Assembly (NCBI GenBank): GCA_913009835.1 | Contig: CAJVXH010000017.1 | Location: 1 to 33,313 of the forward strand | From: an uncultured bacterium | GTDB taxonomy: Bacteria > Electryoneota > Electryoneia > Electryoneales > Electryoneaceae | Length of the DNA stretch: 33,313 nt | Reading direction: 5' to 3' | Part shown: piece after piece, positions 1-30,737 of the stretch | Layout of the letters: each line of letters opens with the position of its first letter | Position numbering within the stretch: the stretch's first letter is position 1 | Position numbers and translations under genes: made by a program | Notes under the pieces: generated by a model | Databases searched by the model: none | The model's input: only the letters and a program-made list of their open reading frames with translations | Told to the model about the DNA's origin: nothing

Positions 1-114
1 TGAGATATAGAGCGATGAGGCGTACTGTTTGGAAGTGTCTGTGGTGCACAGAGTTAATACAATTATGCCTATTCTTTTTTCCTGATAAGGCAAATTTTCA
101 TCTGTTTTATTATC
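1..114. other. AT-rich sequence of unknown origin, probably a chimeric read end not belonging to the host contig
   Basis: Lies on the far side of a complete Illumina adapter; AT-rich unlike the rest of the window; no recognisable coding content. Confidence 0.8.
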
Positions 115-185
115 TTTTTTTTTTTTTAATGATACGGCGACCACCGAGATCTACACTCTTTCCCTACACGACGCTCTTCCGATCT
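115..185 (+). other. Illumina P5/TruSeq universal adapter (128-185) preceded by T13 (115-127); sequencing artefact
   Basis: Exact AATGATACGGCGACCACCGAGATCTACACTCTTTCCCTACACGACGCTCTTCCGATCT at 128-185. Translations give the familiar adapter peptides 'LMIRRPPRSTLFPYTTLFRS' (+) and 'EIGRASCRERV' (-). Confidence 0.99.
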
Positions 186-519
186 CGCCGTACCAACCGC
201 TGGGCATCTTCACGCCAATATCGACGCTCAGAATCTGCCCCTTCTTCAGAGGCTTGTCGTTCGGGAAACCATGTACTACCTGCTCGTCAACCGACATACA
301 ACAAGCAGCCGGAAATGGCTTCACACCCTGCGAACCGGGGTATCCCTTGAACGCCGGCGCCGCGCCAGCCTTCAGAATGTGTTCTTCGACAGCTGCGTTG
401 ATCTCTGCCGTGCTTACACCCGGCTTGATCATTTCGCGCGCAATCTCGTGGCATTCAACAACCAAACCGCCTGCGCGACGCAACTTGTCAATCTGTTCCG
501 GGTTTTTGACCCGAATCAT
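186..519 (-). CDS. map: Methionine aminopeptidase type I, N-terminal part only (3' end replaced by adapter)
   Basis: MIRVKNPEQIDKLRRAGGLVVECHEIAREMIKPGVSTAEIN... MAP family; follows adk with an ATGA overlap; reads into adapter at 185. Confidence 0.93.
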
Positions 520-12463: not shown

Positions 12464-13654
12464 TTACTCAATAATCTTGCTGACAACGCCGGCGCCGACT
12501 GTGCGGCCACCCTCACGGATCGCGAAACGAAGAGTCTCTTCCATCGCAATCGGTGCGATCAACTCTACATCCATCTTGATGTTGTCACCAGGCATGATCA
12601 TCTCAACGCCCTCAGGCAACTTGATCGAGCCGGTAACATCCGTCGTACGGAAATAGAACTGAGGACGATATCCATCAAAGAACGGAGTGTGACGTCCACC
12701 CTCATTCTTGCTCAAAATGTAAACTTCAGCCTCAAACTTGGTGTGAGGATTGATCGACTTCGGCTTCGCCAAAACCATCCCGCGCTCAATCGCGTCCTTG
12801 TCAACACCACGAAGCAACAAACCAGCGTTGTCGCCCGCACGACCTTCGTTCAAAATCTTGCGGAACATCTCAACACCAGTTACAACCGTCTTCTTGTTAG
12901 CATTGAGACCGACCAGCTCCACTTCCTCACCGGTCTTAACTATCCCACGCTCAATACGTCCAGTCGCCACAGTCCCACGACCAGTGATCGAGAAAACGTC
13001 CTCAACCGGCATCAGGAAAGGCTTATCCAAAGAGCGTTCCGGTTCCGGGATGTACTCGTCAACAGCCGCGATCAACTCAAATATCGAAGCAGTCGCCTTC
13101 TCATCATCAGCGTTGTTCAACGCTTCCAATGCAGAACCACGGATGATCGGAATGTCATCACCAGGGAACTCATACTCGCTCAGAAGATCACGCATCTCAA
13201 GCTCGACCAGGTCCAACAACTCCTCGTCATCAACCAAATCGACCTTGTTCATGTAAACGACCAAAGCCGGAACGTTCACCTGACGGGCCAGAAGGATGTG
13301 CTCACGAGTCTGAGGCATCGGACCATCGGCCGCCGATACCACAACTATCGCACCGTCCATCTGAGCTGCACCAGTGATCATGTTCTTCACGTAATCTGCG
13401 TGACCCGGGCAGTCTACATGCGCATAGTGACGGTTGTCTGACTCATATTCCACATGAGCCGTCGCAATCGTGATACCGCGCTCACGCTCTTCAGGAGCAT
13501 TGTCAATTGAATCGAAAGAACGGAACTCTGCCCCGCCCTTCTTCGACAATACCAACGTCATAGCAGCCGTCAAAGTCGTCTTGCCGTGGTCCACATGACC
13601 TATCGTGCCCACATTGACGTGAGGCTTGTCCCGCTTAAATACTTCCTTCGCCAT
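12464..13654 (-). CDS. tuf: Translation elongation factor Tu, copy 1 (str locus)
   Basis: [36 protein letters not shown]...; 396 aa; identical protein to 29493-30683. Confidence 0.99.
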
Positions 13655-29492: not shown

Positions 29493-30683
29493 CTACTCAA
29501 TAATCTTGCTGACAACGCCGGCGCCGACTGTGCGGCCACCCTCACGGATCGCGAAACGAAGAGTCTCTTCCATCGCAATCGGTGCGATCAACTCTACATC
29601 CATCTTGATGTTGTCACCAGGCATGATCATCTCAACGCCCTCAGGCAACTTGATCGAGCCGGTAACATCCGTCGTACGGAAATAGAACTGAGGACGATAT
29701 CCATCAAAGAACGGAGTGTGACGTCCACCCTCATTCTTGCTCAAAATGTAAACTTCAGCCTCAAACTTGGTGTGAGGATTGATCGACTTCGGCTTCGCCA
29801 AAACCATCCCGCGCTCAATCGCGTCCTTGTCAACACCACGAAGCAACAAACCAGCGTTGTCGCCCGCACGACCTTCGTTCAAAATCTTGCGGAACATCTC
29901 AACACCAGTTACAACCGTCTTCTTGTTAGCATTGAGACCGACCAGCTCCACTTCCTCACCGGTCTTAACTATCCCACGCTCAATACGTCCAGTCGCCACA
30001 GTCCCACGACCAGTGATCGAGAAAACGTCCTCAACCGGCATCAGGAAAGGCTTATCCAAAGAGCGTTCCGGTTCCGGGATGTACTCGTCAACAGCCGCGA
30101 TCAACTCAAATATCGAAGCAGTCGCCTTCTCATCATCAGCGTTGTTCAACGCTTCCAATGCAGAACCACGGATGATCGGAATGTCATCACCAGGGAACTC
30201 ATACTCGCTCAGAAGATCACGCATCTCAAGCTCGACCAGGTCCAACAACTCCTCGTCATCAACCAAATCGACCTTGTTCATGTAAACGACCAAAGCCGGA
30301 ACGTTCACCTGACGGGCCAGAAGGATGTGCTCACGAGTCTGAGGCATCGGACCATCGGCCGCCGATACCACAACTATCGCACCGTCCATCTGAGCTGCAC
30401 CAGTGATCATGTTCTTCACGTAATCTGCGTGACCCGGGCAGTCTACATGCGCATAGTGACGGTTGTCTGACTCATATTCCACATGAGCCGTCGCAATCGT
30501 GATACCGCGCTCACGCTCTTCAGGAGCATTGTCAATTGAATCGAAAGAACGGAACTCTGCCCCGCCCTTCTTCGACAATACCAACGTCATAGCAGCCGTC
30601 AAAGTCGTCTTGCCGTGGTCCACATGACCAATCGTGCCCACATTGACGTGAGGCTTGTCCCGCTTAAATACTTCCTTCGCCAT
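29493..30683 (-). CDS. tuf: Translation elongation factor Tu, copy 2 (tRNA-linked locus)
   Basis: Protein identical to copy 1; follows tRNA-Thr/Tyr/Gly/Thr. Confidence 0.99.
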
Positions 30684-30737
30684 CGCCAACCTCCGCAAGT
30701 CCAGGTTTGTCTATCTGCTACTTAAATCTTAAATGCG

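Follow-up and report, generated by a model that had tools for sequence, protein, structure and literature searches.

Adapter sequence at the left end of the contig

The window, by which we mean the whole stretch of DNA that was analyzed (33,313 nucleotides), is the entire contig C17 (C17:1-33313) of a 264-contig, 3.59-Mb, 86%-complete assembly. A sequence found at its left edge therefore sits at a true contig end. On the plus strand, positions 128 to 185 are an exact match to the Illumina P5/TruSeq universal adapter AATGATACGGCGACCACCGAGATCTACACTCTTTCCCTACACGACGCTCTTCCGATCT, with zero matches expected in shuffled sequence. The adapter points inward from the contig end, starting at base 128. 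Thirteen T residues lie directly outside it, and the insert starts at base 186, right after the adapter's CTTCCGATCT. An adapter scan of the window detected no second adapter, and the contig's right end was clean. The features at the left end are as follows.

1 to 114, no strand: most likely base-calling noise from cycles after the template had been read to its end (a read tail, in reverse complement) and not genomic; no match, and a gradient in T content
3 to 350, plus strand: spurious 115-codon open reading frame with FFFLMIRRPPRSTLFPYTTLFRS, which is poly-T and adapter in translation; no Pfam family
115 to 127, plus strand: T13, which traces to the T10 spacer on the surface-bound P5 oligonucleotide and is a few bases longer; T-runs have a lower edge at 10 across sibling ends
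128 to 185, plus strand: complete Illumina P5/TruSeq universal adapter with its Read 1 primer site; exact at 58/58 bases
151 to 185, minus strand: artefactual C terminus EIGRASCRERV, added to the map frame by the adapter, as read from the translation
186 to 519, minus strand: authentic 5' portion of map (methionine aminopeptidase type I), cut by the contig end; TIGR00500, E = 1.1e-26, profile positions 1 to 108; Peptidase_M24, E = 7.9e-17

The match of map to TIGR00500 (247 profile positions) breaks off at position 108, close to the adapter's edge at 185. The adapter truncates the gene after about 108 profile positions. Its missing 3' part was not found in the assembly, where the sole other match was weak (8.8e-5) and lay in another frame, 396 residues long. 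From position 186 onward the contig looks ordinary; the rest of it presumably comprises ribosomal-protein, RNA-polymerase, and elongation-factor genes, which we named from their translations. Two copies of tuf (elongation factor Tu) are on the minus strand at window positions 12464-13654 and 29493-30698, one adjoining fusA and the other near tRNA genes, and their listed proteins are identical over 396 residues.

Adapter contamination across the assembly

The 29-nt P5 sequence occurs in 91 exact copies, and the 24-nt P7 sequence in 96, among the 264 contigs, nearly all of them near contig ends. The 13-nt adapter stem AGATCGGAAGAGC is present 250 times versus about 0.1 expected by chance in 3.59 Mb, and adapter is found on roughly one-third of the assembly's 528 contig ends, if not more. 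Among the ends of this assembly that we read, 84 of 90 P5 copies contained the exact 58-mer, and 55 of 58 P7 copies contained an exact 66-mer that includes the index ATATCAGT. We take the reverse complement of this 66-mer to be the TruSeq index 25 adapter. The library index itself was present on 56 of the 58 P7 sites read; of the two sites without the standard index, one has a two-base deletion or shift and the other is a bare oligonucleotide in contig C41. At all ends read, the adapter faces the genome inward, except in contig C66, where genome lies outside it. The P5 sequence was absent from all 40 relatives searched, among them one congeneric genome and five genomes from the same family. 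Adapter contamination is systematic in this draft genome, and it is an ordinary artefact.

The tails outside the adapters start with runs of T. Among 148 adapter ends of this assembly, 133 have a T-run of at least 10, and run length cuts off sharply below 10, although the searches that located almost all of the ends used P5 or P7 alone, without the T-run in the query. When tails of at least 12 nt are counted, such runs occur at P5 ends in 77 of 85 cases and at P7 ends in 56 of 57. The T fraction in successive 15-nt bins outward from P5 is 0.91, 0.64, 0.52, 0.41, 0.32, and 0.27, and P7 tails are similar. With the T-run removed, 35 long tails have a T fraction of 0.52 near the adapter versus 0.26 far from it (Wilcoxon P = 5e-6). 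For the tail of contig C17, the T fraction is 0.47 near and 0.33 far. Tails are at most 167 nt long. Adapter and tail together span up to 212 nt at P5 ends and 233 nt at P7 ends, which argues that the reads were long, well over 230 nt, and probably belonged to the 250- to 300-nt class.

A second adapter fragment is present in 11 of the 148 tails (L003, L009, L014, L029, L052, L244, L246, L291, L304, L326, and L333). It is always oriented like the first, and some P5 tails hold a P7-type fragment. Pure noise does not explain these fragments, which might be the signal of neighboring clusters or tails joined by the assembler.

Bases 1 to 114 of contig C17 consist of 29 A, 16 C, 25 G, and 44 T, or 36% G+C versus 50 to 57% in the contig's 1-kb windows, a composition that fits the T decay seen at sibling ends. 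A search against the organism's own genome gave no non-self match beyond T-tract or 14-mer chance hits. There was no match among 50,697 phage and 20,395 Escherichia coli records, and 72,556 plasmid records yielded only one 27-nt match at chance level (E = 0.3). Because no source was matched and the T-rich-to-random gradient is common to other ends, these bases most likely represent base-calling noise rather than chimeric DNA.

Similar ends were found in public data, where our comparison set consisted of species-representative genomes with T10-P5 among the matches listed. Among these matches, contig ends that carry P5 next to at least 10 T, with similar tails, occur in bins of DRR093004, DRR093005, DRR092712, ERR712384, and others; the bins of the four named runs are other organisms than the window's genome. 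The window's index ATATCAGT is readable at no fewer than five public loci (L062, L086, L137, L153, and L157), all of them DRR093004 bins among the matches listed, while the DRR093005 bins listed carry AAAGGAAT and the ERR712384 bins listed carry CTAGTACG. The window's genome thus resembles the listed DRR093004 bins in its T10 and P5 ends, in its type of tail, and in the index wherever it is readable. Since the P7 index is shared, the genome is probably another bin of library DRR093004, an assignment made from an index that is usable in other libraries as well.

Origin of the terminal 185 bases

We have little doubt that adapter read-through, kept in the assembly, explains positions 1 to 185. 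This explanation draws on the exact adapter at the contig end, its recurrence with one index, the minimum of 10 in the T-runs, the gradient from T-rich to random sequence, and the lack of P5 in relatives. The library insert would have been shorter than the read, which its orientation suggests was Read 2. The read would have passed the insert ending at 186 and then the whole P5 adapter, and would next have copied the T10 spacer that tethers the strand to the flow cell, called as A10. It would then have left its template, producing phased As followed by noise, and bases 1 to 114 would be the noise of that single read. The reads would have been used without adapter trimming, and the assembler would have retained the tail as a terminus of the contig. 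Bases 1 to 185 of contig C17 are thus almost certainly one read's untrimmed end and not bacterial DNA.

Commercial flow cells carry a T10 spacer. T10-tailed P5 and P7 surface primers have also been given for a home-made surface with the same primer sequences (PMC11123353). Read-through has been described as adapter, a run of As, and then apparently random sequence (Turner 2014; PMC3906532). The end of contig C17, when read on the complementary strand, has the same order of insert, full adapter, A-run, and random sequence. The published case concerned raw Nextera XT MiSeq reads, whereas here the artefact persists after assembly, in a draft genome of the TruSeq type. A literature search for the adapter-coded peptide, and for poly-A read-through under other wording, found no paper.

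The sequence-only reading had identified positions 128 to 185 as an Illumina adapter and a laboratory artefact, which is confirmed by the exact match and by the same adapter at many ends of the assembly. There is virtually no chance that a random or biological sequence happens to resemble the adapter, given 58 exact bases where none is expected, recurrence at many contig ends, and absence from 40 relatives. The suggestion that the T-run traces to the poly-T spacer of the flow-cell oligonucleotide also agrees with our results, in that the T-runs have a sharp lower limit of 10 over 148 ends. The same reading had gone on to suggest that the artefact may derive from the flow-cell oligonucleotide itself. 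The T-run does adjoin P5, and bare T10-P7 and T10-P5 oligonucleotides exist mid-contig elsewhere (e.g., in contig C41 and at locus L121). However, the library adapter here is complete at 58 nt and its Read 1 primer site runs into the insert, whereas the surface oligonucleotide has no Read 1 site, which makes direct incorporation extremely improbable.

Bases 1 to 114 had been regarded as probably chimeric. On such a view they would be real DNA from this organism, another community member, or a eukaryote, joined to the adapter by chimeric ligation or by the assembler via poly-T. Joins of the latter kind do occur: at C66:18459 (L041), 18.4 kb of sequence lies outside the adapter, followed by a T-rich tail, the P5 adapter, and then a G+C-rich stretch of about 110 nt, so an assembler can link a genomic contig to unrelated DNA via such a tail. 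Yet for bases 1 to 114, searches of the organism's own genome, phages, and E. coli gave no match and a search of plasmids gave a hit at chance level, the outward T gradient is common to 148 otherwise unrelated tails, and tail length is bounded. We therefore consider a chimeric origin very unlikely. A doubtful variant of the noise interpretation is that the tails are partly the signal of neighboring clusters after a read's own template was exhausted, in which case bases 1 to 114 could contain pieces of other library molecules, read with many errors.

The artefact matters for curation only. The recommendation to trim this end stands, and the trim point is moved from 114 to 185: bases 1 to 185 should be removed and the contig kept from 186. 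The truncated map and the false frames should not be annotated unchanged, and an adapter screen is needed for the whole draft genome and for public bins of the same runs. If left in place, adapter-coded peptides such as FFFLMIRRPPRSTLFPYTTLFRS can enter protein databases as seemingly conserved sequences.

Bare oligonucleotides within contigs

The mid-contig oligonucleotide in contig C41 is a different artefact from the end adapters. At C41:22557-22590 (L298, 158-191), T10 plus the bare P7 24-mer, with no index, lies inside an apparent reading frame. In the closest homologue of this frame (same genus; G001, L340; 62% identical), both flanks align ungapped over 124 residues. Because the homologue aligns ungapped across the site, the oligonucleotide seems to have taken the place of about 34 genome bases instead of being inserted between them, overwriting them with length preserved. 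When the site was compared with homologues, P7-like bases numbered 7 of 36 in the nearest and 14 of 39 in another. Replacement of this length-preserving kind could reflect a consensus or correction step that was outvoted by abundant adapter reads.

Bare T10-P5 oligonucleotides of 39 nt, which lack the Read 1 site and directly adjoin other sequence, were also found in the interior of contigs from unrelated public genomes and of viral contigs (L117, L121, L146, L148, L155, L161, L176, L181, L184, and L216). At L121, the oligonucleotide is inside a uracil permease gene, and the alignment with a solved relative continues across it, broken only by a gap of two residues.
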